From the NCBI RefSeq assembly GCF_013114835.1, contig NZ_JAAVLW010000001.1:248001-312000 (forward strand): 64,000 nucleotides of DNA, written 5' to 3'. Source of the DNA: Bradyrhizobium archetypum (GTDB taxonomy: Bacteria; Pseudomonadota; Alphaproteobacteria; Rhizobiales; Xanthobacteraceae). How positions within the stretch are numbered: position 1 is the first letter of the stretch; each line of letters opens with the position of its first letter. Shown one piece after another: positions 4,069-26,733 of this stretch. The notes below the pieces were generated by a model. It saw only the letters and a program-made list of their open reading frames with translations, was not told where the DNA came from and did not search any database. Both the position numbers and the translations under genes were made by a program.

Positions 4069-4599
4069 CTAGACTGGATTATCCAGGCTCACAATGTCCT
4101 CGATCACGTCAGGTGGTTCATCCCGGCCTGTGAGCCGCTTATCGTAGAAGATCACTGCATATCCGTGCAACATCCCTTCCTTGCGGCGAACGTAGCCAAC
4201 CGTCTCATAAAGTCTTTGAGCCCCTACTTGGATCTTTGTCGTGTCGAGAATTATCCGCTTAAATCCTAGAGAGCCGGCTCGCGATTCCAATTTACTAAGA
4301 ATCCTCCTCCCAAGCCCTCGTCGTTGAAAGGCGGGATCGACCCGCATCCGCTTCAGCTCTGCGACATCACCGTCAACAGGTTTCAATCCTCCCATGGCAA
4401 CGAGTCGGGAACCAATATGCGCAACCACGAAGTCTCCGCCTGACGCGATGTATACTTCTCCAATGTTGCGTAAATCATCCTCCCACGCTCCTTCCGGGCC
4501 ACGCACACCAACACTCTCCGATGCGCTTCTATGCATATGCCATACATTATCAGTATCCCCCGACTCAAACCGACGAAAGATCACCTCGTCTTGAGACAT
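4069..4599 (-). CDS. GNAT-family N-acetyltransferase
   Basis: Predicted acetyl-CoA-dependent N-acetyltransferase of 176 aa with one GNAT fold. The core shows LVAMGGLKPVDGDVAELKRM (beta4) followed by VDPAFQRRGLGRRIL, the acetyl-CoA pyrophosphate-binding loop of the Q/RxxGxG/A type, then a beta5 strand RIILDTT. The substrate cannot be read from the sequence. It lies 56 bases downstream of the PrnB-like gene on the same strand and could be the last gene of that transcript, in which case it may acetylate the amine product of the two upstream enzymes. That role is inference; stand-alone GNATs of this sort are common. Confidence 0.8.
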   Translation of the reverse strand: MSQDEVIFRRFESGDTDNVWHMHRSASESVGVRGPEGAWEDDLRNIGEVYIASGGDFVVAHIGSRLVAMGGLKPVDGDVAELKRMRVDPAFQRRGLGRRILSKLESRAGSLGFKRIILDTTKIQVGAQRLYETVGYVRRKEGMLHGYAVIFYDKRLTGRDEPPDVIEDIVSLDNPV

Positions 4600-4655
4600 C
4601 GAACATCACCTTTCGACCGGTGTCGGACGCCGCACATCTGGCGCATACCGTCAGC

Positions 4656-5843
4656 TTACGGACGCGCCGCCGTTAACAGCCGCTGTGAAAGAACAGCCTC
4701 AACACTTTCCGACGCCTCAACTCCGACAATTGGACGACCCGGTTCAATCGTATATTTTAAAGCAGTAATACGGTGCATCCGGGTAAACTGATCCAGCGCA
4801 TAAACACAAGACGCGCGCAGCTTTCCGATTTCAGGGCCGTGGCGTTCCATGACGGGCGAAATGGTTGCAGACCTAGGAAAGTCCGCTCTCCCTTCTAGCC
4901 AAGTTGGCGTGAGCTCCGCGCTTTTGCCCGGTGACAACCAGCGGAACACCTCGTGAATGCATACCTGCGGATAGTATTCGGACAGCCGATATACATCCCT
5001 ATAAAATTGCGGTTTCTGTTGGAAGAGTTCTTCACCGGCTAGTAGCACCGAGACCGCCACGATGCGGGCAGAGAACCGGCCGCTCGGGCCAAGCCTGTTC
5101 TTGTAAGGATTTTTTCCGTAGAACACACGAAATTGGCCGAATAGGTCAGGCGACATATGCTCATAAAAGCGCGTCAGAACACAATTTGCTGACTCAAGGC
5201 GCTCCAAGCACACCGCAAGACATTGACGAGCGTCCGCGCCAGCACCGTCACGCAACTCAAGTAGAGCATCGATTGCTAGCTGTAGCTCGCTCTCGATGAG
5301 TTGGTGACCCAAGCAAAAATCTCGCTCTTCGACCCCAGCCGCGCCGAGGCAATATACGCGTGGATCGCTCTGTACCGGGTTCGCAAGAATCATATCTTCA
5401 TACGAGAGGACCTCAATGCTAGGCTGCCGATGACGACTTAAGCGAGCAAGACGGCTCAGTTCCTCTCCCACCGTCAACTCGGCTTCCACCGGATGAAGAC
5501 CGGCAAACGCTGACATCTGATAAGCACAGTTGACGAGATAGTGGATGTCGGTCTTAGCGATCGCGAAGTCGGGCTGCGGCAGATTCAGCAGCTGTACGTC
5601 ATAGTCAGTCGACGCAATCATCGCATTAATGCTTCGTCCAAGAGCCTTGACCCCTTCATCTGGCCGTTTACTACCTTTGATCTCGGCAATGCAGTGCGGC
5701 AGCTGATCGGCTACAAAATTGCTGACAAGCCCAAGCGGGCGTTTTCGCTGCCCGCGATCAATGCTGTCGGTCAGATGAGAAAATATCTGCTGCGCTCGAT
5801 AGGACGGCGGCTCCGGCGTGGAAAAGAATAAGCTAGCGACCAT
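4656..5843 (-). CDS. PrnB/IDO-like putative haem-dependent oxygenase (DUF1864-like)
   Basis: A 395-aa protein that resembles, from memory of the sequence, PrnB, the pyrrolnitrin enzyme that rearranges 7-chlorotryptophan and belongs to the IDO/TDO haem dioxygenase superfamily. Shared landmarks in order are a helix LESANCVLTRFYEHMSPDLF (217-236), RVFYGKNP, LGPSGRFSAR (251-260, the position of the distal-pocket glycine-rich loop), a YRDVY...YPQV...FRWLS block (281-303), and a C-terminal helix TRMHRITALKY in which His357 falls where PrnB has its proximal haem ligand. The ATG at 5843 is 18 bases after the radical SAM gene, so the two are almost certainly an operon. Fold assignment is moderate; substrate unknown; tryptophan or a derivative is a guess. 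Confidence 0.6.
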   Translation of the reverse strand: MVASLFFSTPEPPSYRAQQIFSHLTDSIDRGQRKRPLGLVSNFVADQLPHCIAEIKGSKRPDEGVKALGRSINAMIASTDYDVQLLNLPQPDFAIAKTDIHYLVNCAYQMSAFAGLHPVEAELTVGEELSRLARLSRHRQPSIEVLSYEDMILANPVQSDPRVYCLGAAGVEERDFCLGHQLIESELQLAIDALLELRDGAGADARQCLAVCLERLESANCVLTRFYEHMSPDLFGQFRVFYGKNPYKNRLGPSGRFSARIVAVSVLLAGEELFQQKPQFYRDVYRLSEYYPQVCIHEVFRWLSPGKSAELTPTWLEGRADFPRSATISPVMERHGPEIGKLRASCVYALDQFTRMHRITALKYTIEPGRPIVGVEASESVEAVLSQRLLTAARP

Positions 5844-5861
5844 TGACGAGCGCGCCCGATT

Positions 5862-7337
5862 TCATCGAAAGACAGCTTGCATTTCTGCACTTGACCCGTA
5901 TCTTGCGGCCGGCGAGTAGTCGTGTTTTTCGAGCAGATCGGTTCGCTTGTCTGTTATCCTGCTATCGTTGTACGCGACCCGCTCAAGCACATTGTCGGAG
6001 AAAAATTGCAGCGATACAGCGCCCGCGTTGATATTGCCGGCGGCAGTTAATGACAGCACGCCATCGTTCGAGATGCAGACGAGACCCGCCTCTCTTAAGA
6101 TTTCAAGCTCACGGCAAAAGTATTTTTCAACCGATACTCCAAATTCCCGCTCGAAGCGGGAGAGCAACACTCCGCTGCTTCGCAAGGCAAACATTAACGT
6201 TCTGCGCATGAGGTCGTCCTGCGACAGTACAACCCCCTTCCACACTGGCTTCTCGCCTGCCTCAACCCTAGAAAGGTAGCGATCTAAATCTGCCTCGTTG
6301 TAGAACTGGCACTGGCTCATGTAACCAAATCCGCCAACCCCAAACGGGACAAGATTATTGTCATTCCAGGAATCGTACTTACGGCGCTGTTGAACGGAGT
6401 GTGGCTGCGACCTCTTAGTCCAATAGAAAATCGGCCCGTGGCGATAGCCGAGTTTCGTGAGGATATGTTCTGCCATAAAGTGCATTATGATGCGCTCTTT
6501 AGCCCCGGCGAATTGATATCGCCCTCTAGCCAAATGGCGGGCTACGGGGTCAGTCGATTTAAACATCAATGGGAATACATTGAACTTCTCTATGCCCATG
6601 TCCAATAGGCCGATAATCGAGTCGTACCAGCTCCGGAGCGTTTGCTGCGGCAGCCCATACATGAGGTCAAGCGACAGATTCTCAACGCCCATCTCATTCA
6701 GCAGTTTTACGATTTGTATCACCTCCTCCACACCGTGCCCGCGGTTCAGTATGCGCAAAATACTTCGATCTAGACTTTGAACGCCAAGCACGAAGCGGTT
6801 TACCCCACCTCTAAGCAGAGTGGATATGCGATCCGCAGCGTCCGCATGCCTCACAAGAGAGGGATGCAATTCGAAACTTACTTCGGCCCTCGATAAATCA
6901 AAGCGCTGATTAGTCATATCAAATAGTGTTTTGAGTTGATGGTTGGTCAAAAACGAGGGAGTGCCACCTCCAAAGAAAGCAGTCTCGACATCTCTGCCAG
7001 CAAGCGCCGCATCTGACCAACTCATCTCCTTATTCAAAGCCGCCAAATAACGTTCCACTCGCTCGGAAGATGGATTGATTTCCTTGGCGAAGTGGCAAAA
7101 GGTGCAATACTGATTACAGAAGGGGATGTGGAAATAGAGGTCAATTGACGACGCGACCTTATTCAACAACCTTTCGGCATCCAGGTCCCCCATTGCCTTG
7201 AGAGGCGGATAGGTGCCGACGAGATAATCGTTGTGCGTATCAAGGTGCAAGTTTCGCGATCTCAACATGTCTAGGTTAATCTCGTACGAACGGTCGATCG
7301 CGAATTCCAGGGCCTCCGAATAGCTTGGCGCGTTCAT
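5862..7337 (-). CDS. HemN-like radical SAM protein
   Basis: A 491-aa radical SAM enzyme. Residues 67-84 hold YFHIPFCNQYCTFCHF, the Cx3Cx2C cluster site (Cys74, Cys78, Cys81) in the HemN/HemW style, followed by FFGGGTPSFL, the SAM-binding glycine motif, and GVQSLD and LDLMYGLPQQ of the barrel. A C-terminal winged-helix-like part follows. It is not true HemN: an N-terminal extension replaces the PRYTSYP entry, and a HemN with that entry lies at 36.7 kb. Relatives include HemW haem chaperones, class C methyltransferases and anaerobic haem-cleaving enzymes. It is first in an apparent operon with a putative haem oxygenase. No strong promoter motif was recognised upstream. Confidence 0.85.
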   Translation of the reverse strand: MNAPSYSEALEFAIDRSYEINLDMLRSRNLHLDTHNDYLVGTYPPLKAMGDLDAERLLNKVASSIDLYFHIPFCNQYCTFCHFAKEINPSSERVERYLAALNKEMSWSDAALAGRDVETAFFGGGTPSFLTNHQLKTLFDMTNQRFDLSRAEVSFELHPSLVRHADAADRISTLLRGGVNRFVLGVQSLDRSILRILNRGHGVEEVIQIVKLLNEMGVENLSLDLMYGLPQQTLRSWYDSIIGLLDMGIEKFNVFPLMFKSTDPVARHLARGRYQFAGAKERIIMHFMAEHILTKLGYRHGPIFYWTKRSQPHSVQQRRKYDSWNDNNLVPFGVGGFGYMSQCQFYNEADLDRYLSRVEAGEKPVWKGVVLSQDDLMRRTLMFALRSSGVLLSRFEREFGVSVEKYFCRELEILREAGLVCISNDGVLSLTAAGNINAGAVSLQFFSDNVLERVAYNDSRITDKRTDLLEKHDYSPAARYGSSAEMQAVFR

Positions 7338-8072
7338 GCTTGGGGTTCCTTAGTTTTCGTGTTTAGGCAAGCCGCGATGGCAGCTGCGGCCACGTCCCAT
7401 AAATCTCTTCTTTGGCCCGTTACTGAAGCAGCACATCTCGATCAGCGACCTGCATTCGCCTTCCACTCGACCCAGATCAGATCGCACGTCGCGATGCGCA
7501 CGGCGAGACACGCGGGATGACTACAGATTGTCGAGGACAGGCAGGTGTCGCGGCCAACGCGAATATTCTTCGTGCGTTGCGAAACCTGACGGCACTCAGT
7601 GCGGCGCCTCTGTCGTTGATTTGGGTTAATCGAGTAAGTTTCATCTAGCTCCTGCGCCAACGACTGGAAGAGCGGCATAGTCGTGCGGATCCTTTACCAT
7701 CTCCCAGCAATCGACGTGCCACCAAGCACGTTTGTGCGGGCCTTGCTTGAAGAGTGAAAGCATGTGCTTCGCGCCGCGGCGACGGAATACTTCCCGCCTC
7801 GGCGTCGGTTTTCGAACATACGCGTCTTCAACCGGACACGCTGAATACGACACCACCATCGTAGCATCCATCGATTTCGCAGCCGTTTCGATGCGCGTGT
7901 CGATCCCGCCCTGAACCGGTTAGGGCCAGAATTGCTTGAAGTGGGCATGACAGCGATAAAGAAGCCCGTAATACGGCGGTGCCAGGGTTTTGGGCCGTTG
8001 CCGGCTCTGGCGGCATTTTCCAACTTTCCGGAGCTCCGCGGGCAGTTGGCGAATGGCCTTGGGAATAGCATT

Positions 8073-9934: not shown

Positions 9935-10513
9935 ATGGAAGGGGAAGCCTTTCTTTGGTTGGTCCGGCATGCGGTAGTCGTCAATACTATCGAAGGAACG
10001 ATCTCGCCTTCGGGCGCTCCGGCCGATCTCAGCGATCGGGCGCATTTGGACGCCGTGCGAAGGCGCTTGCCGCGGGACGCCGCAAGCTATGCGAGTCCGT
10101 CTCAACGGACTGTCGATACCGCGCGCGCATTCGAGCTTGATCCGATTCTCGTGCCTGAGTTTCGGGAGCAGGACTTCGGGGATTGGACCGGCCGACGTCA
10201 CGACGATCTCGCCGCTCTCGGAGAAGAAGGGTACGCCGAGTTCTGGAAGGATCCCGCTCGTTCAAGCCCACCCGGCGGCGAGAGCTTCGAAGATCAAATT
10301 GCGAGGGTTCGGGATGGATTTCGTAAAATAGCTGCTGGTCCAGCAACGCTCGTCGTGCATTCCGGCACTATTCGCGCCGCGCTCTGCGTAGCTCTCGATA
10401 TCACACCGCGAGCAGCGTTGCGCTTCGTAATCGATCCGCTGTCGATCACCCGAATTGATCGGCTACGGCACGATTGGCGGATTGTGTCGGTCAATCAGAA
10501 TGTCGCGTTATGA
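9935..10513 (+). CDS. Histidine phosphatase, probable alpha-ribazole phosphatase (CobC/CobZ role)
   Basis: Phosphoglycerate-mutase-fold phosphatase, predicted to remove the phosphate from alpha-ribazole-5'-phosphate or adenosylcobalamin-5'-phosphate at the end of the nucleotide-loop pathway. LVRHA near the start gives the catalytic RHG-type His; ASPSQRTVDTA, EQDFGDWTG (as in other CobC phosphatases), PPGGESF and LVVHSGTIRAAL complete the family pattern. I chose ATG 9935 because GGAGATATAGGG precedes it; an in-frame ATG at 9890 is possible. It converges on cobT with a 6-base overlap. In E. coli naming this is cobC; rhizobial cobC is a different gene at 28872. Confidence 0.8.
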   Translation: MEGEAFLWLVRHAVVVNTIEGTISPSGAPADLSDRAHLDAVRRRLPRDAASYASPSQRTVDTARAFELDPILVPEFREQDFGDWTGRRHDDLAALGEEGYAEFWKDPARSSPPGGESFEDQIARVRDGFRKIAAGPATLVVHSGTIRAALCVALDITPRAALRFVIDPLSITRIDRLRHDWRIVSVNQNVAL

Positions 10514-11563
10514 GCGATTCGGAATGCTGGCTTGCGCGAAGGTCGCCATGCCGTTGTGCAGAGCGCATGCAAGCCGCAGGATCGGCAATGCAAGCGCGGC
10601 GCCCGACCCCTCCCCTAACCTGAGGTCCAGATTGAATAACGGCTGCACATTCAGCGCCTCAAGAACTAGGCGGTGCCCCTGCTCGGCCGATTGATGCGAC
10701 GATAAGAGAAAGGGCCGACACGACGGATTAAGATGCACCGCCGTCAACGCCGCGACGGACACGATGAAACCGTCGATCAGGATCGGGAGGCGACGCTGTG
10801 CGGCGGCGATGATCGCGCCCGTAATAGCAGCAGTTTCAAGACCGCCGACCGCGCACAGGATCCGCTCGGCAGAAGTTCCTGGTCTTGTAAGGTCATGACG
10901 AGCCAGCGCTGCATCAATCAGGTGCGCCTTGCGCGCACGGCTGTCTGCATCGATCCCGGTGCCATTGCCGGTCACCTGCTCGGCGCGGATGCCAAGCAGG
11001 GCGGCGGCGACTGCCGCAGAAGTCGTGGTGTTGCCGATCCCCATGTCACCAAGGATCAGAAGATCCGGCTCTGCTGAGGCCGCCCGCGCGATAGCGCGCT
11101 TGCCGCAGCCGAAGGCGAAGGCGACCTCGCCCAACTCAAGCGCCGCTTCCTTGCTGAAATCCCGGCTGCCCTGGCGCGGCTTGTCTGTCACGACTCCCGG
11201 GACGGGCTGTTCGGCGAGCGTTCCGGCATCGACGATTTCCAGACTTAAGCCCAGTTCGCGCGCGAGAACCGAAATTGCTGCACCGCCTGACGCGAAATTC
11301 GACATCATCGCGATCGTAACTTCCTGAGGATAGGCCGATACGCCCTGCGCGACGATGCCGTGATCCCCTGCAAAGACGATGATCGGCGCGCGCTCGGCTC
11401 GAGGCCGGTCGGTTTGTTGCAGACCGGCCAGCTCGATCGCGAGGTGCTCGAGGCGACCCAGCGCACCGGTCGGCTTGGTGAGCTCGGCCTGACGGGCCAG
11501 GGCGGCATCGCGATGGAAGATCGAAACGCCCGGGCACTCCTGGTAGACCCACTCGGGTAGCAT
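10508..11563 (-). CDS. cobT: Nicotinate-nucleotide--dimethylbenzimidazole phosphoribosyltransferase
   Basis: Transfers phosphoribose from nicotinate mononucleotide to 5,6-dimethylbenzimidazole, giving alpha-ribazole phosphate. The 351-aa protein shows TKPTGALGRLEHLA near the N-terminus, VFAGDHGIVAQGVSAYP, LLILGDMGIGNTTTSAA, and the C-terminal LRLGEGSGAALALPIL, all CobT hallmarks. ATG 11563 fits the usual length; an extended frame upstream is noise. It ends the cbiM-cobF-cobT transcript below the 13.1-kb riboswitch, and its substrate is supplied by BluB at 32286. Not to be confused with the cobaltochelatase subunit also called CobT. Confidence 0.95.
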   Translation of the reverse strand: MLPEWVYQECPGVSIFHRDAALARQAELTKPTGALGRLEHLAIELAGLQQTDRPRAERAPIIVFAGDHGIVAQGVSAYPQEVTIAMMSNFASGGAAISVLARELGLSLEIVDAGTLAEQPVPGVVTDKPRQGSRDFSKEAALELGEVAFAFGCGKRAIARAASAEPDLLILGDMGIGNTTTSAAVAAALLGIRAEQVTGNGTGIDADSRARKAHLIDAALARHDLTRPGTSAERILCAVGGLETAAITGAIIAAAQRRLPILIDGFIVSVAALTAVHLNPSCRPFLLSSHQSAEQGHRLVLEALNVQPLFNLDLRLGEGSGAALALPILRLACALHNGMATFAQASIPNRS

Positions 11564-11615
11564 GTCGTCCTGCCCTTGGTGATTGTTCAAAATGCCAGCA
11601 GCCTTCGTACGAGTG

Positions 11616-12365
11616 CTACGACACGCGCTTGAGGATGTAGCTATCCATGATCCAGCCGTGCCTGGCGCGTGCTTCCTGTCGGGTGGCAACGATGCCTGGC
11701 CCCACTTCTGCGAGCGCACCTGACATGGTGATTTGCCGGGGCATCCCGAGATAGGCGCCCCACCAGATATGTAGTCCGTTCGGATCGAGCCACTGGAACG
11801 CGGCACCCCCATCGAGCATGACGACCACGGTGTCGGTGCCGGACGGCCAACCGCCTTCGCGCAGCCGCCGTCCGGTGGTGACGAGAAAAGGCTCCCCAAT
11901 GTCGTTCAGCGGCAGTGAATGTGCGGCGCAAAGCGCCTGGATCGACGTGATGCCCGGGACGACCTCGATCATCGGCAACGGATCAAGCTTTCGTGCGATC
12001 CGCAAGCTCGAATCGTATAGCGAAGGATCGCCCCAAATCAGCAGGGCAACGCGCCCGCAATCACCGAGATGCGCCGCAATCGCTCGGGACCAGCTCACTG
12101 CGACGGCGTCGTGCCATTCGTCCACTCCCTTGCGGTAGCCCTCCTGCGCCGTGTCGCGAATGGGCAGGTCGAACTCGGCAACGCGCGTACGGCTGTTCGT
12201 CAAGGCTTGCGCGCAAATCAGCCGGCGCAGGTCGGCGAGATCGGACTTTACCGGGCCCTTGCGCGGAATCAGCACCAGGTCAGCCGCATTGATTGCGCGG
12301 ATCGCAGCAAGCGTGAGCTGCTCGGGATCGCCGCAGCCAATGCCTATCAGGGAGAGTGTCAGCAT
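11616..12365 (-). CDS. cobF: Precorrin-6A synthase (deacetylating) CobF
   Basis: SAM-dependent C1 methyltransferase that releases acetate from precorrin-5, a step specific to the aerobic pathway. The 249-aa protein starts LTLSLIGIGCGDPEQLTLAA, the tetrapyrrole methylase glycine loop, and includes ALLIWGDPSLYDSS and EVVPGITSIQALCAAHSLPL, with a CobF-type C-terminus WIMDSYILKR. It lies 49 bases after the CbiM-like gene and 52 before cobT. Its presence, with cobG and cobN, marks the aerobic cobalt-late route. Confidence 0.95.
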   Translation of the reverse strand: MLTLSLIGIGCGDPEQLTLAAIRAINAADLVLIPRKGPVKSDLADLRRLICAQALTNSRTRVAEFDLPIRDTAQEGYRKGVDEWHDAVAVSWSRAIAAHLGDCGRVALLIWGDPSLYDSSLRIARKLDPLPMIEVVPGITSIQALCAAHSLPLNDIGEPFLVTTGRRLREGGWPSGTDTVVVMLDGGAAFQWLDPNGLHIWWGAYLGMPRQITMSGALAEVGPGIVATRQEARARHGWIMDSYILKRVS

Positions 12366-12414
12366 CGCGTTATGAGTCGGGGCGGCCGCGACTTGCGACC
12401 GCCCTTAGGCCATC

Positions 12415-13092
12415 TCAGGCGGCGTTGTGAAGCCGATAAGTAACAAGACCATCGGCCGTCACAGCTCTCAGTGATTTCGCCAGTGCCAGCACGGCTAGAT
12501 CGGCCAGCGGCTCAATTACTATGACGAGCGCGTAGGAAGCGGCGAAAGACGCGATGGAGGCGAGGTTCTCGGCCGCAAAGCCCGCACCATACAGCGCCCA
12601 GAAGGCGACCCACGCCACGATTCCGGATTGATAGGCGGTCGAAAGCGCAAGTGCCTGCCGATACTGCAGGTCAACATAGGCGGTGTTGCGAGGAATGATC
12701 CGCCCGGCCAGCGCCTGGATCGCAAACAAAGGCACCAGCAGCGTAGTCACGTTCATACCATATTGCGGCAGGTCGGTCGGCACGAAGAACAGCCCCTGCA
12801 GCAGAAGACCAAGCGCCAGGCCGAACGCGGCTGGCGCTGCGCCGAACAGGAGAAACAGCGTCGAGCCGAGAATGAAATGCACCTCCGAGACCCCCATCCG
12901 GAAATGCGGCAGGAGTTCGAAGAACGAGAAAACCAGGACCGTTGTTGCGATGGTGCGCACCGCGAATGAAACAACCCCCTGCTCGCGCACGGTTTCGACC
13001 GTGAGCTTGAGAGCGCAGCCGCCGGCAACGGCACCCGTCGCGTAACTCAGCATGAGCTTGGCGCCCGTAACGGTACCTGGTTCGATATGCAT
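12415..13092 (-). CDS. CbiM-family energy-coupling-factor cobalt transporter component
   Basis: Integral membrane protein of 225 aa with several hydrophobic segments (for example FHFRMGVSEVHFILGSTLFL-like helices through LGLLLQGLFFVP). It begins MHIEPG; in CbiM/NikM proteins the N-terminal amine and His2 help bind Co2+ or Ni2+, and that His is present. HFRMGVSEVHF is also family-like. No cbiN, cbiQ or cbiO accompany it here, so either those are elsewhere or this is a solitary type. A cobalamin riboswitch directly upstream (13140-13330) argues for cobalt rather than nickel. A ribosome site AGAAGGGA stands 10 bases before ATG 13092. Confidence 0.85.
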   Translation of the reverse strand: MHIEPGTVTGAKLMLSYATGAVAGGCALKLTVETVREQGVVSFAVRTIATTVLVFSFFELLPHFRMGVSEVHFILGSTLFLLFGAAPAAFGLALGLLLQGLFFVPTDLPQYGMNVTTLLVPLFAIQALAGRIIPRNTAYVDLQYRQALALSTAYQSGIVAWVAFWALYGAGFAAENLASIASFAASYALVIVIEPLADLAVLALAKSLRAVTADGLVTYRLHNAA

Positions 13093-13139
13093 GACTTACG
13101 TCCCTTCTGCCGTCACACCCGACGGCGCTGGTGTTAAGA

Positions 13140-13330
13140 ATTGCAGGGCCGGTCTCCTCGCTCGCGGTTCGAAACGGGTCCTGGCTTCCCAAGCTTGACG
13201 GCCCAGTGGCGGATCGGAGCCCCTCACCGCTTACAGGCGCGGGCGCGGCCGGAGCTTTGGGCGCCGCATTCACGTCCGCCCTTGCCCGTTCCCGATTATG
13301 CTCCGGCGCTTTGCTCCGCTTCGAGCACCA
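13140..13330 (-). promoter_or_regulatory. Cobalamin riboswitch upstream of cbiM-like-cobF-cobT
   Basis: On the minus strand in order: GGGAACGGGCA, GCCGCGCCCGCGCCTGTAAGC, a CCACTGGG core, TTGGGAAGCC, and GCGAGCGAGGAGACCGGCCC, the conserved B12-aptamer blocks. No T-run terminator follows; instead a perfect hairpin (GCCGTC...GACGGC) abuts the AGAAGGGA ribosome site of the CbiM-like gene, so control is probably at translation initiation. Boundaries are approximate. Confidence 0.88.
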
Positions 13331-13395
13331 TGCCTGCTCTGTGTGCTCCTTCCGAGGAGACGTCAAGGGGCTGGCGAGATCGGGCGACGGCATCA

Positions 13396-14124
13396 TCATA
13401 AAGTCTCTCCCGCCAGCGCGCCGAAAAGAATGACCGCCGCCGTCGTTGCGGCGGTCGCTTGCGCGAGCTGCTCTGCGAGCTGTGCAATCGTGGTGCGGAC
13501 AATCCGCTCCTCGGCGCGGCCCAGAGACTCCGCAAATAGCGCCGGCGTGTCGGGAGCCATGCCGTGCTCTATCAGCTTTGCCGCGAGCGCCGGGAATGTG
13601 CGCTTGCCCATATAGACCGCGGTCGTCGATTCCGGATCGGCCAGTGCCGCCCAATTGAGATTCGCGGGCAACCGCCCGGTGACATCTGCGCCGGTCACGA
13701 ACTGGACGCGGCGCGAGGTGCGCCGGCGGGTGAGTGGAATGCTGGCGCGCGCTGCCGCAACGTAGGCTGAGGTGACGCCTGGAATGATCTCGTAGTCGAT
13801 GCGCGCCGCGCGCAGCGCCTCGATCTCTTCTTCAAGCCGGCCGAAGATGCCGGCGTCTCCCGATTTCAAACGTACAACGCGGGCGTTTGCGGCGGCGCAG
13901 TCGATGAGCAGCCGGTTGAGGTGCTCCTGTTTGGCTGAGGGCCGGCCCACACGCTTGCCAACCGCTACCAGATTGGCCCCGGCTCGGGCGTAATCGAGGA
14001 TCGCGCCCGAGGCAAGGTCGTCATACAGCACGACATCAGCAGCGCGCAGACGCGCAGCCGCCTTGAGCGTCAGGAGCTCGGGATCGCCTGGGCCGGCCGA
14101 GACAAAGGAAACAAAGCCGCTCAC
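13396..14124 (-). CDS. cobA: Uroporphyrinogen-III C-methyltransferase
   Basis: Methylates uroporphyrinogen III at C2 and C7 with SAM to make precorrin-2, the entry to the corrin branch. The 242-aa protein has VSAGPGDPELLTLKA, VVLYDDLAS, VRLKSGDAGIFGRLEEE and IIPGVTSAYVAAARASIPLT, the standard SUMT signature set, without the CysG oxidase/ferrochelatase domain. The start is GTG 14124, overlapping the cobB stop as GTGA. It closes the cobL-E-M-B-A run just before the second riboswitch. Confidence 0.95.
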   Translation of the reverse strand: MSGFVSFVSAGPGDPELLTLKAAARLRAADVVLYDDLASGAILDYARAGANLVAVGKRVGRPSAKQEHLNRLLIDCAAANARVVRLKSGDAGIFGRLEEEIEALRAARIDYEIIPGVTSAYVAAARASIPLTRRRTSRRVQFVTGADVTGRLPANLNWAALADPESTTAVYMGKRTFPALAAKLIEHGMAPDTPALFAESLGRAEERIVRTTIAQLAEQLAQATAATTAAVILFGALAGETL

Positions 14125-15434
14125 CTGTCCTCCGCAATGAGGTGGAAGAACGTGCCGGTGGCGTAGCCGCGTCGCGAGCCCGTCTCCGCAACGACCGCGC
14201 CAGTCGCGTCGCGCACGATAGCCAGAGGTGTATCGGGCTGCGAGACAATCGTGGAGTAATGGAATTCATGGCCGCGCAGGAGCGCTCTGGCCTGATATCC
14301 GGGCATCGGCAGAGCGAGTTCCGCAAGTCGATAGCCCAGATGCATGCGACGTTGGGCAAAACTCGTCTCCAGGCCGAGCAGTCCGGTCATCTCGTGGCGT
14401 GTGCCGCCACCCTCGGTCAAGGCGGTGCCCAGCACCATGTAACCGCCGCATTCGCCATGCACCGGCCGTGTCTCAGCAAAGGATTTTAGCGCACGGCGGA
14501 ATTGGCGATTTGCCGCGAGTTGGCCGGCGTGCAATTCCGGATAGCCGCCGGGCAGCCAGCAGACGTCGGCACTGTCATCAGGACCCTCGTCGGCGAGCGG
14601 CGAGAAGGTCGCGATCTCGGCACCGGCGGCACGCCAGGCCTCCAGCATGTGCGGATAGACGAACGAGAATGCGCCGTCGCGCGCCAGAGCGATGCGCTGG
14701 CCGGGTGGCTTGACGCTCGGGCCGTGTGCGGCGCATGGCGCCGTCGAGGCGCATGCCGCCGATTGCAACACTGCATCGAGATCGACATGCTCGGCGACGA
14801 AGCGGGCGGCTTCCGCGATCAGGCCGTCGACCTCGCCCTGCTCCTCAGCCTGCACCAGGCCAAGATGCCGCTTCGGCAAGCTGATCGCGGCGTGGCGGGG
14901 CAACGCCCCGAACACGGCAATGCCGGCGCCTGCCATGGCACGGCGCACCAGGTCCTCGTGCCGGGTGCTGGCGACGCGGTTGAGAACGACGCCGGCAAGA
15001 CGCACGCCTGCGCGGAAATCGCGCAGTCCCGCAGCCACCGCCGCGGCGGTTTGCGCCTGTCCGGAGGGATCGATCACAAGCAGGACCGGCCAGCCCATCA
15101 TCTCGGCGATATCGGAGGTAGCGCCGGTCCCCGAGAGGCCCCGTGTGGCAACGCCGTCGAATAAGCCCATCGAACCTTCGGCCAGAACGAGATCCGCATT
15201 CGCACCGCGCGAAGCGAGCGCCTCGATCGCTTCGCGGTGCATGGCCCAGCTGTCGATGTTGACGGAGGTGCGCCCCGCGGCGGCCGCATGAAAGGCGGTA
15301 TCGATATAATCGGGCCCGCTCTTGAAGCACTGGACCTTCAGCCCGCGATCGCGATAGGCGCGCGCCAACGCCAGCGTCAGCGTCGTCTTGCCGACACCGG
15401 ATGCAGGCGCGGAGATGACGAGGCTCGCCGTCAT
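14121..15434 (-). CDS. cobB: Cobyrinate/hydrogenobyrinate a,c-diamide synthase
   Basis: ATP- and glutamine-dependent amidation of the a and c side chains, preparing hydrogenobyrinate for cobalt insertion by CobN. The N-terminal P-loop reads SAPASGVGKTTLTLALARAY; the C-terminal class I glutamine amidotransferase domain has GECGGYMVLGTAL with the catalytic Cys and a late HEFHYS. About 437 aa. ATG 15434 overlaps the cobM stop as TGATG, and a GTG three bases upstream (15437) is also possible. Confidence 0.95.
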   Translation of the reverse strand: MTASLVISAPASGVGKTTLTLALARAYRDRGLKVQCFKSGPDYIDTAFHAAAAGRTSVNIDSWAMHREAIEALASRGANADLVLAEGSMGLFDGVATRGLSGTGATSDIAEMMGWPVLLVIDPSGQAQTAAAVAAGLRDFRAGVRLAGVVLNRVASTRHEDLVRRAMAGAGIAVFGALPRHAAISLPKRHLGLVQAEEQGEVDGLIAEAARFVAEHVDLDAVLQSAACASTAPCAAHGPSVKPPGQRIALARDGAFSFVYPHMLEAWRAAGAEIATFSPLADEGPDDSADVCWLPGGYPELHAGQLAANRQFRRALKSFAETRPVHGECGGYMVLGTALTEGGGTRHEMTGLLGLETSFAQRRMHLGYRLAELALPMPGYQARALLRGHEFHYSTIVSQPDTPLAIVRDATGAVVAETGSRRGYATGTFFHLIAEDR

Positions 15435-16216
15435 CACGAGCCTTCCGGAAAGCGCGGCGTCGGCCCGAGCGGCCGATAGCGGCGGTCATAGTCGACGGCA
15501 TACAGGCGGCTCTCTCCGAAATCTTCCGAACCCAGTGTGCGGCCAACCAGAATAACGGCCGTGCGCTCGAGCTCGGTGCTTACAGCAGAATCCAGCGTAC
15601 CGAGCGTAGCGCGAATGATGCGCTGATCCGGCCAGCTTGCGCGCCAGACTATTGCGACCGGGCAGTCTCCTCCGTAGTGCGGCGTCAGCTCATCAATTAC
15701 CCTAGAAAGCAGATGGATCGAGAGATGGATGGCGAGCACCGCACCGGTCGCGGCGAAGGTGGCGAGCTTCTCGCCTTTCGGCATCACGCTCGCCCTGCCC
15801 GGCATCCGCGTCAGGACGACCGATTGCACAAGACCTGGCAGCGTGAGCTCAGCCTCGATCGCGGCCGCGGCGGCGGAAAAGGCCGGCACGCCGGGCGTGA
15901 TTGAATAGGAGATTTGAAGCGCGCGCAGGCGGCGCAATTGCTCGCCCATCGCCGACCAGATCGAGAGATCCCCGGAATGTAGCCGTGCGACGTCCTTGCC
16001 CTTATGATGCGCGGCGACGATCTCCGACATGATGTCGTCGAGCGACAGCGGCGCGGTGTTCACGATCCGTGCATCCTTTGGGCAATGGGCAAGAACGCCC
16101 TGGGGTACGAGAGAGCCGGCATAGAGGCAGACCGGACAGGCGGCAATCAGATCGCGACCGCGCAAGGTGAGCAGATCAGCTGCTCCCGGTCCGGCGCCGA
16201 TGAAGTGCACCGTCAT
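15434..16216 (-). CDS. cobM: Precorrin-4 C11-methyltransferase
   Basis: SAM-dependent methylation at C11, giving precorrin-5. The 260-aa protein opens [19 protein letters not shown] and contains [35 protein letters not shown] and [14 protein letters not shown], matching CobM/CbiF. The ATG overlaps the cobE stop as ATGA, so the genes are translationally coupled. Confidence 0.96.
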
Positions 16217-16581
16217 TCGGCGTCTCCTTCCGCGATCGCTGCGGTCGCCGTCCGATCCTGCGAGAGGGCCCGCGTCGAAACAAGGCGCGCACCACGGCCG
16301 GCGACCGCAAGCGCCGCGGCTTCGGCGACGGAGCCCGTACCGAACTTCGCCTTGATGGATTCTGACTGTGTGGGCGTGGCAATGCCGGCCAGGACATCGG
16401 CCGAAACAGGCCGGATCGGCACGTTGAGTTCGCGCGCCAGCAATTTGAGCGCGGCGGTTTCGGCCTTGTCGCTGACCGTTGCAACTGCCGCGAGATCTTC
16501 AGGACCGCCCGCGGCGGCGAGAGCTTCGCGCAGCGCAGCCAGTGTGACCTCCCGCTTGAACCCCAGACCTGCGACTTTCAC
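16213..16581 (-). CDS. cobE: Cobalamin biosynthesis protein CobE
   Basis: Small protein related to the C-terminal domain of CbiG; its exact role in the aerobic pathway is not settled. It reads [20 protein letters not shown], then [19 protein letters not shown] and [18 protein letters not shown], as in CobE/CbiG-C. I prefer GTG 16581, which overlaps the cobL stop as GTGA and has GGAG at a good distance, over ATG 16596, which lacks a ribosome site. Confidence 0.88.
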
Positions 16582-17759
16582 TTGACTGCACTCCATTGCA
16601 CGACCGGCCGCACCGCTTCCCAGGAGCGGTAGCGGCCGAGGTGACCCGCATGCGCAATCTCGATTCGCATCAACTCGCCACCGTGGCGTTGATGAAGGTC
16701 CGAGAGTAGCGCCTCGGTCTCCAGCGTGACGGCATGCGCAACTAACCTCACTCTCGGCTCAATGCGCGACCACACCGCATCGAACATCCTGGCGTCGAGC
16801 CCTCCGCCGATGAAAACGGCTTGCGGTGTCCCAAGGCCCGAGAGGATATCTGGCGCTATTCCCTCAACGATGGCGATCCGATGCGTCAGACCGAAGGTTG
16901 CCGCGTTGCCGCGGATATTCGCTACGCGATCAGCCCGCGCTTCGACGGCGATCGCCGTGCCACCACAGAGAGCCCATTCTACCGAGATCGAACCTGAACC
17001 GGCGCCAATGTCCCATAATCTGTCGCCGCATCTCGGCGCCAGCGCCGAAAGCGCGAGCGCGCGCATCGGCCGCTTGGTGAACTGGCCGTCATGCACGAAG
17101 AGCGCGTCCGAAAGGCCGGAGCTACGCGGAACGCCGTGCGGTCCATTGGTTTCCAGCGCAACTGTCACCGGACCCGCGCCGCTATCGGCGGCGTAGCTGT
17201 CGGCCCGATATTGCGCCACGGATTCGCGGGCACCGCCGAGCGCGGTGAGCGTCCACAGCCGTGAATCGCCCCAGCCGCGCGCCGTCAACCATTTGGCCAG
17301 ATCTCCGGGCGCCTTGTCGTCGCGCACGAGACAGATAATGCGCGCTCCACGTGTCAGATGCGGCACCAGGCGTTCGAATGGCGCCGCGTGGAGTCCAAGA
17401 CAGACGACAGATTCGAGCCGCCATCCGAGCCGCGCCGCAGCAAGTGAGAATGTCGAGGGCGCAGGATGCGCAATCCATTCGCTCTTGCTGAGCCGTTCCG
17501 CGAGACTGGCTCCTACGCCGTACCAGGATGGATCGCCCGAGGCGAGCACCACCGTCGGACGGCCGCGGCAGGTCAGGACGCAATCTGTCTCGAACGGCAC
17601 CGACCAGGGACGGCCGCGGTCGGCAATCCCTGCCAGCGCGAGATGCCGTTCGCCGCCAAACACCGTCTCGGCTTCCGCAAGCGCCTTTCGGCTTGCATCC
17701 GAGAGGCCGGCAAGGCCATCTTCGCCAATGCCGATAATCGTCAGCCAGGGATCATGCAT
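16578..17759 (-). CDS. cobL: Precorrin-6Y C5,15-methyltransferase (decarboxylating)
   Basis: Bifunctional enzyme of 393 aa that methylates C5 and C15 and decarboxylates the C12 acetate. The N-terminal CbiE-like half has LTIIGIGEDGLAGL, VVLASGDPSWYGVG and PAPSTFSLAAARLGW; the C-terminal CbiT-like half has LWDIGAGSGSISVEWAL, a class I methyltransferase SAM site, and AVFIGGGLDARM. ATG 17759 is back-to-back with the plus-strand cobK start, sharing two bases, so its ribosome site lies inside cobK. Transcription must arrive from cobJ across antisense cobK or from a promoter inside cobK. Confidence 0.95.
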   Translation of the reverse strand: MHDPWLTIIGIGEDGLAGLSDASRKALAEAETVFGGERHLALAGIADRGRPWSVPFETDCVLTCRGRPTVVLASGDPSWYGVGASLAERLSKSEWIAHPAPSTFSLAAARLGWRLESVVCLGLHAAPFERLVPHLTRGARIICLVRDDKAPGDLAKWLTARGWGDSRLWTLTALGGARESVAQYRADSYAADSGAGPVTVALETNGPHGVPRSSGLSDALFVHDGQFTKRPMRALALSALAPRCGDRLWDIGAGSGSISVEWALCGGTAIAVEARADRVANIRGNAATFGLTHRIAIVEGIAPDILSGLGTPQAVFIGGGLDARMFDAVWSRIEPRVRLVAHAVTLETEALLSDLHQRHGGELMRIEIAHAGHLGRYRSWEAVRPVVQWSAVK

Positions 17760-18507
17760 GATGCGCGCCCTCATTCTGGGCGGAACAAGCGATGCCAATC
17801 TGCTCGCGGACGCTGTGGCGCGCGCGGGGTGTAATGCGATCTATTCCTATGGAGGTCGCACCCGCGCCCCGGCGAACCAGCCGCTGCCGACCCGCATCGG
17901 GGGGTTCGGCGGCGTGAATGGCCTTGCCGAGTTCATTCGACGCGAGGGAATAACGCACCTTGTCGATGCAACCCATCCCTTCGCGGCCGAGATGAGCCGC
18001 AATGCGGTTGCAGCGTGCGAGACGACCGGAACACCGCTGATCGCGCTCGAGCGCGCACCCTGGGCAAAAGAGGCCGGGGACACTTGGATCGAGGCCGCGG
18101 ATATCACCTCGGCTGCCGCAGTGTTGCCGAACAATCGCGCGCGGGTATTTCTTGCGATCGGACGGCAGCACATCACAGCTTTCAGCGCCAGGCCGCAGCA
18201 CGCCTACACTTTGCGGTTTGTCGATCCTCCCGATCGACCACTGCCATTTCCGGATGTCGATGTCATTGTGTCGCGCGGACCATTCACCCTCGCCGGCGAA
18301 TTGGAGATGATGCGCGCGCGCGGCATCGAATGGGTTGTTGCCCGCAATGCCGGTGGAGCGGGCGCGCGTGCCAAGATCGACGCTGCGCGCGAGCTCGGCC
18401 TTCCCGTCGTGATGCTCAAGCGGCCCGAATTGCCTGACAGGCCGCGGGTCGAAAGCGTGACGGAGGTCATGCATTGGCTCCGTCATCGGGCATGCCTCGG
18501 TGCATAG
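17758..18507 (+). CDS. cobK: Precorrin-6A reductase
   Basis: NADPH-dependent reduction of precorrin-6A to 6B. The 249-aa protein has LILGGTSDANLLADAV, LVDATHPFAAEMS, FLAIGRQHI and the C-terminal LGLPVVMLKRPE, typical of CobK/CbiJ. It is the only plus-strand gene in the 10.5-26.4 kb run. It starts at tandem ATGs (17758 and 17761), the first overlapping the cobL start codon, and its end overlaps the convergent cobJ end by 25 bases. Its promoter would have to lie inside cobL. Confidence 0.94.
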   Translation: MMRALILGGTSDANLLADAVARAGCNAIYSYGGRTRAPANQPLPTRIGGFGGVNGLAEFIRREGITHLVDATHPFAAEMSRNAVAACETTGTPLIALERAPWAKEAGDTWIEAADITSAAAVLPNNRARVFLAIGRQHITAFSARPQHAYTLRFVDPPDRPLPFPDVDVIVSRGPFTLAGELEMMRARGIEWVVARNAGGAGARAKIDAARELGLPVVMLKRPELPDRPRVESVTEVMHWLRHRACLGA

Positions 18508-19217
18508 ACCCAGCGGCCGACGCGGCGCGTTGCTGAATTGCCTACGATGACAAGGGTTCGCATGTCGGCCATCTCGGGCCGTGCCTCGCGCAGCATCACC
18601 GTTTCAATTCGCTCCGCGGCCGTGCTGACCGCATGGGCAAAGATCACGAGGCGTTCGCCCCAACCTGCCTCCTTCAGAACCGAGAGCGCGCGTCCAAAAC
18701 CATCGGGCCGGCTCACTGAGCGCGGATTGTACATCGCGATCGCAAAGTCAGCTTCGGCAGCAAGCCGCAAGCGCTTCTCGATCATCGGCCACGGCTTCAG
18801 ATTATCGGAGAGATTGATCGCGCAAAAATCGTGGCCGAGCGGCGCGCCGGCGCGCGCGGCCGCTGCCAGCATTGCAGTTACGCCGGGCAGAACGCGGATT
18901 GCAAGCCCCTGCCATTGCGGCGAGACTTCAAGGGCTTCGAATACAGCCGCTGCCATGGCGAAAACACCCGGGTCGCCGGACGAAACCATGACAACGCGGC
19001 GTCCCTTCGATGCCAGCTGCAAGGCATCGTTTGCGCGCTGCAACTCCATGCGATTGTCTGATGGATGTAGCGTCAGTCCTTCACGCGGTTGCACCCGCGC
19101 GACATAGGGCGCATAGCCCACGACGTCGGTCGCGGCGGCGAGCGCGGCGGAGACTTCCGGCGTGACTAGCGCCTGGTCGCCCGGCCCAAGTCCCGCGATG
19201 GTCAATATGCCCGTCAT
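18483..19217 (-). CDS. cobJ: Precorrin-3B C17-methyltransferase
   Basis: Methylates C17 with ring contraction, giving precorrin-4. The 244-aa protein has LTIAGLGPGDQALVTPEV, VVMVSSGDPGVFAMAAA, VLPGVTAMLAAAARAGAPL, HDFCAINLSDNLKPW and AMYNPRSVSR, the CobJ/CbiH set. ATG 19217 overlaps the cobI stop as ATGA; the longer upstream frame is a shadow. The 3' end runs 25 bases into cobK on the other strand. Confidence 0.96.
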   Translation of the reverse strand: MTGILTIAGLGPGDQALVTPEVSAALAAATDVVGYAPYVARVQPREGLTLHPSDNRMELQRANDALQLASKGRRVVMVSSGDPGVFAMAAAVFEALEVSPQWQGLAIRVLPGVTAMLAAAARAGAPLGHDFCAINLSDNLKPWPMIEKRLRLAAEADFAIAMYNPRSVSRPDGFGRALSVLKEAGWGERLVIFAHAVSTAAERIETVMLREARPEMADMRTLVIVGNSATRRVGRWVYAPRHAR

Positions 19218-19945
19218 TCGGCCGCCTCCATCCGGCGTCCCTGCCCATGCACGAGTACGATCGCGAAATAGGGACACTCGGTCTCGTCCAGGTCCCTCAG
19301 CCGCACGACGCGCTCACCCGGCATGGTGCCGCGTTCGATCAGCCATGCCTCGCCAAGGCGGCCGGCGGCGGCAAGCGCGCGGCGCACCTTCTTCAGATTG
19401 CGCCCGGTCTTCATGATGACGAGCGCATCGGAATTGCGCGCGCGTTGCTCGAGCTCGTGTTCCGATAGCGTACCCATCAGCACCGTCATCACATCTTCGC
19501 CGAGGGCGATCGGCAGGCCGACCGAATTCCAGCAGCCAGCCATGCCGGGAATGCCGGCGATCACCTCGATTTCGACGCGGGCCTGCAGACGTGCACGCAG
19601 GTGCATGAAGGAGCCGTAGAAGTAGGGATCGCCCTCGCAGAGAATGACGACGTCGAATGCGCGGGCAAGCCGCGCAAGACGCTCCGCCCACTCGTCGTAG
19701 AAGCCTGCAAGGAGGCGAACATATTCCGGACGGTCGAAGGCGATCTCCGTCGTGACCGGATACTCCATCGGATATTCGCAGACGTCCTTTGCCAGTAGTC
19801 CCTCGACGATGCGGCGCGCCTGGCCGGGCCGTCCCTTCTTCCGGAAATAGGCAACGTGCTTGGCCGCACGGACCTCACGATCGGCGCGCACGCTCATGAG
19901 GTCCGGATTTCCTGGCCCGAGGCCGCAACAGATGATGCGCCCCAT
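19214..19945 (-). CDS. cobI: Precorrin-2 C20-methyltransferase
   Basis: SAM-dependent methylation at C20 to precorrin-3A. The 243-aa protein has IICCGLGPGNPDLMSVRA, VVILCEGDPYFYGSFMHL and VIAGIPGMAGCWNSVGLPI, characteristic of CobI/CbiL, plus VIMKTGRNLKKVR. Two bases separate it from the cobH stop. It belongs to the DUF1636-cobW-N-G-H-I-J transcript. Confidence 0.96.
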   Translation of the reverse strand: MGRIICCGLGPGNPDLMSVRADREVRAAKHVAYFRKKGRPGQARRIVEGLLAKDVCEYPMEYPVTTEIAFDRPEYVRLLAGFYDEWAERLARLARAFDVVILCEGDPYFYGSFMHLRARLQARVEIEVIAGIPGMAGCWNSVGLPIALGEDVMTVLMGTLSEHELEQRARNSDALVIMKTGRNLKKVRRALAAAGRLGEAWLIERGTMPGERVVRLRDLDETECPYFAIVLVHGQGRRMEAAE

Positions 19946-19947
19946 GG

Positions 19948-20577
19948 CTATTCGCTCCGGCTCGCCAGCGCGTTCACGGCGGCGACCGTGATCGCCGAGC
20001 CGCCAAGGCGTCCCTCGACCGTCAGCGCCGGCGCAGGCTGGTCAGCCATTAGCGCAACCTTGGCTTCAGCCGCGCCGACAAAGCCGACCGGACAACCAAT
20101 GATCGCCGCAGGTCTTGGACAGTTGCGATCCTCCAGCATGTTGAGCAGGTGAAATAGCGCGGTCGGCGCATTGCCAATAGCGACGATCGCGCCGTCCAGA
20201 TGCGGCCTCCACAATTCCAGCGCTGCGGCTGAGCGGGTATTGCACATGGATTGCGCGAGGGAGGGAACCGCGGGATCGTCAAGCGTACAGATGATGGCGT
20301 TGCCGGCCGGCAGGCGCGCACGCGTAATTCCCTCCGACACCATGCGTGCGTCGCAGAGGATAGGCGCGGCGTTCTGAAGCGCAGTCCGCGCGATGCGCGC
20401 CATGCCGGGCGTGAAGCGGATGCAGGATTCGAGACTGACCATGCCAGCGGCATGGATCATGCGAACGACGACCGGCTCCTCGTCGGCCGAAAAGCGCTCA
20501 AGGTCCGCCTCGGCACGGATGGTGGCGAAGGATTGACGGTAGATCGCCGCACCATCGGTTTCATAGACGTGCGGCAT
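19948..20577 (-). CDS. cobH: Precorrin-8X methylmutase
   Basis: Moves the C11 methyl to C12, converting precorrin-8X to hydrogenobyrinic acid. The 209-aa protein shows VRMIHAAGMVSLES with the catalytic His, CDARMVSEGITRARLPAGN, and GNAPTALFHLLNMLE followed by IIGCPVGFVGAAEAK, as in CobH/CbiC. ATG 20577 overlaps the cobG stop as TGATG. Confidence 0.97.
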   Translation of the reverse strand: MPHVYETDGAAIYRQSFATIRAEADLERFSADEEPVVVRMIHAAGMVSLESCIRFTPGMARIARTALQNAAPILCDARMVSEGITRARLPAGNAIICTLDDPAVPSLAQSMCNTRSAAALELWRPHLDGAIVAIGNAPTALFHLLNMLEDRNCPRPAAIIGCPVGFVGAAEAKVALMADQPAPALTVEGRLGGSAITVAAVNALASRSE

Positions 20578-26016: not shown

Positions 26017-26387
26017 TCTGCGGGCTCCGGCAGGATGGTGATGGGTGGAATACGGGCAAGCGATTGTTTGCGGAAGATCTCCGGCCGGCTGCGCCACGGC
26101 ACGATGCCGTCGGGCGCCGCCGCATAGGCCGCAGCTCCAGCAACTACGTCCGGCGCGTTTGCATCGGATAGGCGTCCGTAGACATAGGACCAGCGTCGCG
26201 GCGCGCTGAGAGCAATCGAGCAGCCCTGGCTGCAGGCGGACAGGCACTCGACCGGAACGACGCTGACGCCTTCGGGCACGCCAGCCTGAAGGATGGCGCT
26301 ATGCAGACGGGCGCCCGGCGCGGTCTCGCCTTCCCTCAAGGATTGGCCGGCACGGCAGGTGATGCAGACATGAAGCGTGACGGTCAT
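26013..26387 (-). CDS. DUF1636 small Cys-rich (2Fe-2S ferredoxin-like) protein
   Basis: A 124-aa protein of the DUF1636 family often found beside cobW. The pattern HVCITCRAG...VECLSACSQGCSIAL places four or five Cys as in thioredoxin-like 2Fe-2S ferredoxins, so a redox or metal-handling role is plausible; no activity is established that I know. It is the first gene below the 26.5-kb cobalamin riboswitch. ATG 26387 follows GAGGAGGGCG, and that ribosome site can pair with an upstream CGCCTCC, a likely translational switch. Confidence 0.82.
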   Translation of the reverse strand: MTVTLHVCITCRAGQSLREGETAPGARLHSAILQAGVPEGVSVVPVECLSACSQGCSIALSAPRRWSYVYGRLSDANAPDVVAGAAAYAAAPDGIVPWRSRPEIFRKQSLARIPPITILPEPAE

Positions 26388-26489
26388 CGCCCTCCTCGAC
26401 GTTTTGGCGGAGGCGATGAGGCGCACGAACCATAGACATAAGGGTTCGTTGCCGTCGCGGAGCACCCCGTCCGCCGGTCTCAAGTCTCT

Positions 26490-26690: not shown

Positions 26691-26733
26691 ATTTGCCCAA
26701 GCGTGCAACTTGTCAAGCCAAAGGAGCGTGCCG

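Follow-up and report, generated by a model that had tools for sequence, protein, structure and literature searches.

Locus organization

The window analysed here is the whole 64-kb stretch of Bradyrhizobium archetypum DNA introduced above, and all coordinates refer to it. Its subject is a set of three genes, hereafter the trio, transcribed from the minus strand and encoding, in 5' to 3' order, a HemN-like radical S-adenosylmethionine (SAM) protein, a 395-residue protein that resembles indoleamine 2,3-dioxygenase (IDO), and a GNAT N-acetyltransferase. The reading frames, their strand and coordinates, and the 18-nt gap between the first two genes (5844-5861) are as given in a preliminary description made from the sequence without database searches; the 395-codon gene and the GNAT gene are 56 nt apart. 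Domain searches bore out two of its assignments, namely the HemN-type identity of the radical SAM protein (PF04055, 2e-22; HemN_C, PF06969, 1.1e-9) and the presence of a GNAT gene downstream of the pair (PF00583, 2.3e-16). The features of the locus are as follows.

4069..4599, minus strand: GNAT N-acetyltransferase, 176 aa, PF00583
4656..5843, minus strand: IDO-like protein, 395 aa, probably of the haem-dependent aromatic oxygenase superfamily; candidate residues are distal His180, Arg239, a GPSG loop at 252-255 and proximal His357
5862..7337, minus strand: HemN-like radical SAM protein, 491 aa, with CxxxCxxC at 74/78/81 and a HemN_C domain
7338..7705, minus strand: leader, from the promoter to the first gene, with a 55-codon reading frame behind GGAG at 7477-7644
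7706..7721, minus strand: sigma54 (RpoN) -24/-12 element, TGGCACGTCGATTGCT, an exact TGGCACG-N4-TTGCW
7803..7818, minus strand: NifA upstream-activator-like site 2, TGTTCGAAAACCGACG, 20 bp downstream of site 1
7823..7838, minus strand: NifA upstream-activator-like site 1, TGTCCGGTTGAAGACG, TGT-N10-ACG

Promoter and leader

Passages of two regulon studies give the sigma54 consensus as TGGCACG-N4-TTGCW (PMC4999443, PMC3538637), and passages of the first give the textbook NifA site as TGT-N10-ACA (PMC4999443). The exact sigma54 consensus has a single match in the 64 kb, at 7706-7721 on the minus strand; shuffled sequences held 0.05 matches on average, with a match in 5 of 100. Genome-wide, the exact consensus occurs 20 times versus three times for the reversed pattern, and nine of the 20 sites fall within 256 kb of the start of contig 1, the trio's site being the last of these.

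Upstream regions were compared at 25 loci, that is, the window and 24 others with enough upstream DNA, among which L006/L007/L015, L008/L033, L009/L010 and L020/L038 are near-duplicates. TGGCAY-N5-TTGC is present on the coding strand upstream of the radical SAM gene at every locus, versus 22 of 5000 dinucleotide-shuffled upstream regions, and 24 loci have the exact TGGCACG-N4-TTGCW; the element and the gene are separated by 200 to 790 nt. At 24 loci a pair of TGT-N10-ACR sites, spaced by 20 bp, precedes the sigma54 element by 94-124 nt; in L011 only site 1 of the pair is found. Site 1 is thus found at 25 of 25 loci, with an exact ACA end at two, and site 2 at 24 of 25, with an exact ACA end at 11 of the 24. 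Taken singly, site 1 is weak, a version with three mismatches occurring in 44 of 100 shuffles. A coding origin for the conservation of the sigma54 element, as part of a frame reading WHVDC, was considered; indels between lineages break that frame, and the conservation is therefore read as that of a promoter.

These comparisons show the promoter elements of the trio to be, as judged from sequence, a sigma54 -24/-12 element and NifA-like sites, and suggest regulation by NifA. In both its -24/-12 element and its tandem TGT-N10-ACR enhancer-like sites the locus resembles the NifA-RpoN regulon of rhizobia as described for Mesorhizobium loti R7A and in an alphaproteobacterial reconstruction. The parts found of the M. 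loti R7A paper mention no hemN, coproporphyrinogen or acetyltransferase (PMC3538637), and the three hemN passages found in the reconstruction name it as an FnrN/FixK target (PMC4999443). Among loci that lack the radical SAM gene, a sigma54-like site survives in L014, L016 and L032, where it precedes the IDO-like gene by 340-400 nt. The only such site in L028 and L036 is poor, and none lies within 4.5 kb at L034 or L039.

The window's leader frame (7477-7644, minus strand; MKLxRLxQIN...) begins about 62 nt past the promoter. A short frame starting about 54-64 nt after the -12 end, often with MKLxRLxQIN, recurs at most of the 25 loci, but it is cut short in L011 (seven codons), L024 (11) and L020/L038 (13), and a search of L026 found no corresponding ATG. 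The 55-codon frame, with its partly conserved start and its breaks at several loci, is probably not a conserved gene. In L013, L017-L021 and L038 the promoter is 730-790 nt upstream of the gene, and in L013, L017-L019 and L021 the leader frame extends to 140-142 codons; this longer frame looks like the remnant of the C terminus of a pyridoxal phosphate (PLP) enzyme or MocR-type protein.

Association with nodulation genes and distribution

A panel of 265 genomes, taken to be Bradyrhizobium, was searched with the profile of the 395-residue family and with that of NodA (PF02474). One of these genomes, G973, has the family's gene at coordinates identical to those on a B. elkanii USDA 76 plasmid, in keeping with the assumed genus. 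The family matched 50 genomes, in 41 of which the gene is open over most of its length and in nine broken or fragmentary. NodA was matched at E ≤0.001 in 163 genomes, weakly (E above 1e-10) in 24 and strongly in 139. All 50 family-positive genomes fall within the 139 (Fisher exact test, 6.7e-17, a value that overstates independence because the genomes are related); the counts of 50, 41, nine and 139 and the overlap were made by eye. In the genus searched, the 395-residue family is therefore restricted to NodA-bearing strains. Neither this restriction nor the sigma54/NifA-type promoter had been noticed in the preliminary description.

Scanning 84,980 species genomes with a peptide pattern, which detects close relatives only, gave 31 loci, every one of them in Bradyrhizobium, Mesorhizobium or Rhizobium; among named relatives, B. 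australiense is the closest (97%). Plasmid records gave 18 matches. Nine span at least 80% of the query and include plasmids of R. gallicum and R. tropici (bean isolates) and B. elkanii USDA 76; the other nine match only residues 1-68, at 46%. In a wider profile search of the phylum, two of 398 genomes matched, both from the window's genus, and 61 pattern matches in viral contigs included no relative. One whole-genome match, L004 (30%, E 4.7e-4), was discarded, as it lies on the opposite strand of a frame resembling a real gene.

Of the 31 genome loci, 21 have a whole radical SAM gene and one has it split (L007, perhaps by a true frameshift, perhaps by an error in assembly); four have a truncated copy (L028-L031) and five have none (L014, L016, L032, L034, L035). 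An uninterrupted IDO-like gene, with at least 380 aligned residues, is present at 27 of the 31 loci, and an uninterrupted GNAT gene, with at least 156 residues, at 28. Stops within these GNAT alignments fall at residue 158 or later; several orthologues end at 158-168, and we take the early stops to be shorter C termini. Wherever the radical SAM gene is full-length (21 whole and one split), the IDO-like and GNAT genes stand beside it in the same order (22 of 22). The genome-neighbourhood search that the preliminary description had proposed for the pair thus found the two genes together at 22 of 31 loci, and its refuting outcome, homologues that never co-occur, was not seen among the rhizobial orthologues. 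In a neighbour comparison of 21 loci, outside which the close relatives L006, L007, L015 and L033 were left, the only reading frames of at least 70 codons common to all were those of the trio.

Ratios of non-synonymous to synonymous substitution (dN/dS) against the window copy are 0.07-0.15 for the radical SAM gene, 0.18-0.28 for the IDO-like gene and 0.19-0.49 for the GNAT gene; all three genes are under purifying selection. The IDO-like gene has a dN/dS of 0.40 in the pair L016/L009 and 0.43 in L028/L026, in each of which one partner is without a whole radical SAM gene, versus 0.18-0.31 in the other pairs listed. Any rise in dN/dS upon loss of the radical SAM gene is only suggestive, because L079 and L039, also without that gene, give unraised values of 0.20-0.31, and L016 and L028 give 0.22-0.23 against the window.

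Sequence evidence on the IDO-like protein

Searched alone, the 395-residue protein matches no Pfam family, and it does not reach the gathering score of PF01231 (IDO). Sixteen of 24 orthologues touch PF01231 weakly (best E 0.032), and this is the only Pfam family matched. A PF01231 scan of the window's own genome gave no match, but control genomes gave none either. A split gene in another genome of this class, L043, is distantly related (profile E 1.1e-10; hhalign 4.3e-6 for the second half), and its second half scores 23.9 bits against PF01231 (2.2e-5; cut-off 26); on its own this half has no match in the PDB and none among plasmids. IDO surfaced among PDB matches only after both L043 halves had been added to the profile, whose first matches were then IDO1/IDO2 (6cxu, E 0.0023). 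The widened profile's 28 listed chains comprise 25 of IDO and three of T-cell receptor, with none of PrnB, tryptophan 2,3-dioxygenase (TDO) or MarE.

His357, Arg239 and L251-G-P-S-G255 are invariant in all 24 orthologues. His357 aligns with the His of IDO1 'SYHLQIVTKY', which we take to be the proximal ligand His346, and with that of three bacterial IDOs. The earlier proposal of His357 as a candidate proximal haem ligand is thereby supported short of proof, and the loss of conservation of His357 and LGPSG that would have told against it was not observed. His180 aligns with a His of 6cxu, by its title an IDO1 S167H mutant, and the three bacterial IDOs also have His at this position. Arg239 aligns with the Arg of IDO1 'LRIY', presumably Arg231; a MAFFT alignment gaps that stretch. 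The GTGG loop of the three aligned bacterial IDOs is absent, a VGVEASE-type sequence standing in its place. According to passages of a published study, the hTDO loop is PASG and that of MarE is DATG, and a second MarE loop, SLGGR, departs from GTGGS (PMC11904535). The invariant GPSG may correspond to the PASG/DATG loop.

Predicted structure of the IDO-like protein

In a Foldseek search with an AlphaFold model made from orthologues alone, ranks 1-4 were IDO (rank 1, E 0.039, prob 0.99). The best VIA-align match was 6azu (Z 12.2, rmsd 7.7, 257 residues aligned), and the best 50 rows were all IDO or SO4414. A second model was made from an alignment that contained bacterial IDO rows and is not independent for that reason. 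Its Foldseek list is led by TDO (E 0.069), with PrnB at ranks 38 and 48 among the best 50 and MarE also lower, and its VIA-align list by SO4414 (Z 15.3, rmsd 9.9, 288 aligned), with IDO2 at Z 14.1 and TDO 2nw9 at Z 12.9 (rmsd 4.3, 203 aligned); Z values of 12-15 are possible by chance for helical models. Identity in the listed superfamily matches of the second model is 11-18%, and absence from a fold list was not counted as evidence. At another locus (L048, 251-2538), a relative of SO4414, a haem protein of solved structure, lies next to a gene read as a class V aminotransferase (kynureninase-like).

Since the same superfamily heads the lists for both models and is also the one to which the sequence points, an IDO-type haem fold for the 395-residue protein is likely, though not proved. 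The protein resembles IDO1/IDO2 and the bacterial IDOs in its profile and fold matches, its collinear segments, the His at the proximal position and, as far as alignment goes, His180, and it differs from IDO (PF01231) in falling below the Pfam cut-off, in lacking the GTGG loop and in its radical SAM/GNAT operon. The preliminary description had assigned it a PrnB layout within a haem-oxygenase relationship. A relationship to the IDO/TDO/PrnB superfamily is supported short of proof, and the structure prediction suggested as a check returned no unrelated fold at its head, the orthologue-only model favouring IDO. The PrnB layout itself was not supported: 25 of the 28 profile-matched chains are IDO and none is PrnB, and PrnB comes at fold ranks 38 and 48. 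On present models and alignments the protein looks nearer IDO than PrnB.

The radical SAM and GNAT proteins

The radical SAM protein scores 80.6 bits against PF04055 (cut-off 29.5), and all 14 aligned orthologues keep Cys74/78/81. It matches HemN (coproporphyrinogen III dehydrogenase, 1OLT) at E 2.6e-46, with radical SAM and HemN_C regions over most of its length, and NocN at 2.8e-21 over radical SAM residues 65-238. Against the HemN equivalog model TIGR00538 it scores 200 bits, short of the cut-off of 324.95, and it is likewise below the NCBIfam cut-offs for HemW (162.3 versus 205.4 bits), HutW (179.8 versus 400) and STM4012 (192.6 versus 380). The second Cys of the HemN 'CGC', which we take to be the fourth Cys of HemN, faces Phe83 of the trio's protein. 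Two matches above the HemN cut-off occur elsewhere in the genome, so that the trio's protein is probably dispensable for ordinary haem synthesis. One of the two is in split frames within the window (36764-38055, plus strand), whose matches overlap on the profile (positions 13-77 and 74-445) in the manner of a frameshifted gene.

Among the best 60 of 283 plasmid relatives of the radical SAM protein, identity drops from 78% straight to about 30%. An attempt to read function from such relatives was abandoned, three neighbourhoods proving little informative. At one plasmid locus of R. leguminosarum (L081, 5869-9671), a 27%-identical HemN-like radical SAM gene is followed by genes for a FAD oxidoreductase and a tryptophan-tRNA ligase, possibly another tryptophan-related cluster with a HemN-like enzyme.

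The GNAT protein scores 60.5 bits against PF00583 (cut-off 20.7), and its relatives are generic among the best 40 of 85. The annotation of R. tropici CIAT 899 joins the IDO-like and GNAT genes into a single gene for 589 residues; the radical SAM gene of this strain is truncated. On a plasmid of the same strain (L036, 20955-24060), genes for HxsA/HxsB/HxsC, a His-Xaa-Ser radical SAM system, lie about 7-10 kb from the remains of the trio.

Neighbouring genes

Downstream of the trio and on the same strand are genes for the small and large subunits of a NiFe hydrogenase (PF14720/PF01058 and PF00374; 709-3614, minus strand). A link to hydrogenase was considered and dropped: hup-region frames adjoin the trio at no more than six of the 21 loci compared (the window, L005, L008, L014, L016 and L032), and the arrangement is probably local. 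Upstream, at 10508-28861, lie genes of cobalamin-biosynthesis type (PF02277, PF00590, PF02572, GATase_3/CbiA).

Discussion

We propose, with a probability of roughly 0.55, that the trio is a symbiotic operon, driven by NifA and RpoN, whose products modify a small molecule of indole or other aromatic type. The three genes would form one operon of the symbiotic gene set, transcribed in nitrogen-fixing, oxygen-poor cells by sigma54 RNA polymerase with a NifA-type enhancer protein at the two upstream sites. The IDO-like fold would bind haem through His357, and His180 and Arg239 would face an aromatic substrate resembling an amino acid. The protein would probably insert oxygen other than by cleaving tryptophan to formylkynurenine; because the GTGG loop of IDO/TDO is replaced, chemistry other than plain formylkynurenine formation is to be expected. 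The radical SAM protein might act on an unactivated carbon, either of this molecule or of its precursor, and the GNAT protein might acetylate a free amine, giving a small indole- or aromatic-derived product in nodules. In favour of the proposal are the gene order, the same at all 22 loci with a whole or split radical SAM gene, the purifying selection on the three genes, the joint annotation of the IDO-like and GNAT genes in CIAT 899, the sigma54 element with its TGT-N10-ACR sites, the NodA association and the superfamily matches of the IDO-like protein.

Several observations count against this proposal. A PDB search with the single sequence gave only an irrelevant match (E 0.58), and the orthologue-only profile no superfamily match. 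The 6cxu alignment consists of two collinear segments with E values of 0.76 and 44 of their own, hhalign to the three bacterial IDOs gave E 0.0041 with a probability of only 8%, and hhalign to an SO4414-type protein gave no useful match. Confidence in the models is low (mean predicted local distance difference test score, pLDDT, 51.5 for the orthologue-only model) or still weak (68.7 for the second, non-independent one); an unrelated protein comes next in the first Foldseek list (E 0.12, prob 0.60) and an unrelated helical one appears in the second at E 0.30, and neither model has a Foldseek match below E 0.001. As to cooperation of the genes, an open IDO-like gene occurs without the radical SAM gene in L016, L079 and L039 and beside a truncated one in the R. 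tropici group, none of seven listed frames around L043 resembles a radical SAM gene as judged from the frame list, and no further gene of at least 70 codons travels with the trio across the 21 loci. Of the 25 loci only 11 carry an exact TGT-N10-ACA, the window not being among them, and the NodA association could reflect symbiosis-island linkage and not a role in nodules.

Among other explanations, the IDO-like protein could be an ordinary tryptophan 2,3-dioxygenase forming N-formylkynurenine, with the GNAT protein detoxifying or capping an amine and the radical SAM protein as an accessory. The distal and proximal His positions match those of bacterial IDOs and the Arg aligns with that of IDO1, but the absence of the GTGG loop, the failure to reach PF01231 and a conserved block without any further gene, hence without kynureninase or formamidase, make this unlikely. 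It is also unlikely that the radical SAM protein is a HemW- or HutW-like haem chaperone, or a haem-modifying enzyme, that equips the IDO-like protein. Its nearest named families are indeed HemN, STM4012, HutW and HemW, and the IDO-like dN/dS of 0.40 and 0.43 was found in pairs with one partner lacking the whole radical SAM gene; against this, its scores are below the HemW and HutW cut-offs, and open IDO-like genes persist without it, with unraised dN/dS in L079 and L039. Moreover, we know of no requirement of IDO, TDO or PrnB for a dedicated haem loader, which also speaks against a chaperone. A nodule-type promoter and the reuse of haem folds would suit a haem-binding O2/NO sensor or scavenger of the bacteroid, a non-biosynthetic role that we consider very unlikely given the invariance of Arg239 and the GPSG loop (24 of 24) and the odd partners that GNAT and radical SAM proteins would make.

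Two further alternatives concern the leader and the promoter. That the trio modifies a ribosomally synthesized and post-translationally modified peptide (RiPP) is suggested by the short leader frame seen after the -12 end in most of the 25 loci; its early stops in L011, L024 and L020/L038 and the missing ATG of L026 break it across loci, so that a precursor in the leader was dropped as a candidate and peptide modification is highly improbable. The promoter likeness might, lastly, be coincidental or inherited from an older, lost gene, the operon being constitutively expressed symbiosis-island cargo, as the 730-790-nt distances at L013, L017-L021 and L038 and the remnant-like leader frames in five of these seven could indicate. 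This too has little probability, since the element is kept at 25 of 25 loci despite variation in leader sequence and length, and since the genome holds 20 exact sites versus 3 reversed ones, 9 of the exact sites being within the initial 256 kb of contig 1. A small-molecule pathway, the reading already favoured in the preliminary description, appears to remain the most economical account and is supported short of proof.

More tentatively, and perhaps not to be expected on balance, bacteroids of various rhizobia may switch on, together with nitrogenase, a three-enzyme indole or aromatic pathway (IDO-type oxidation, radical SAM chemistry and acetylation) that gives an undescribed nodule molecule, possibly acting on plant tryptophan- or auxin-derived signalling. 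Among the matches listed from the open-licence PMC literature, no description of the trio was found. If the proposal is true, the NifA regulon, which is known mainly for nitrogenase and the functions that supply it, would also hold a secondary-metabolite pathway, one confined to NodA strains in the genus searched and present in three genera, partly on symbiotic plasmids. The locus would also add an uncharacterised lineage of IDO-like proteins with a seemingly altered active-site loop, and it leaves few items to test, namely one promoter, three genes and one metabolite.

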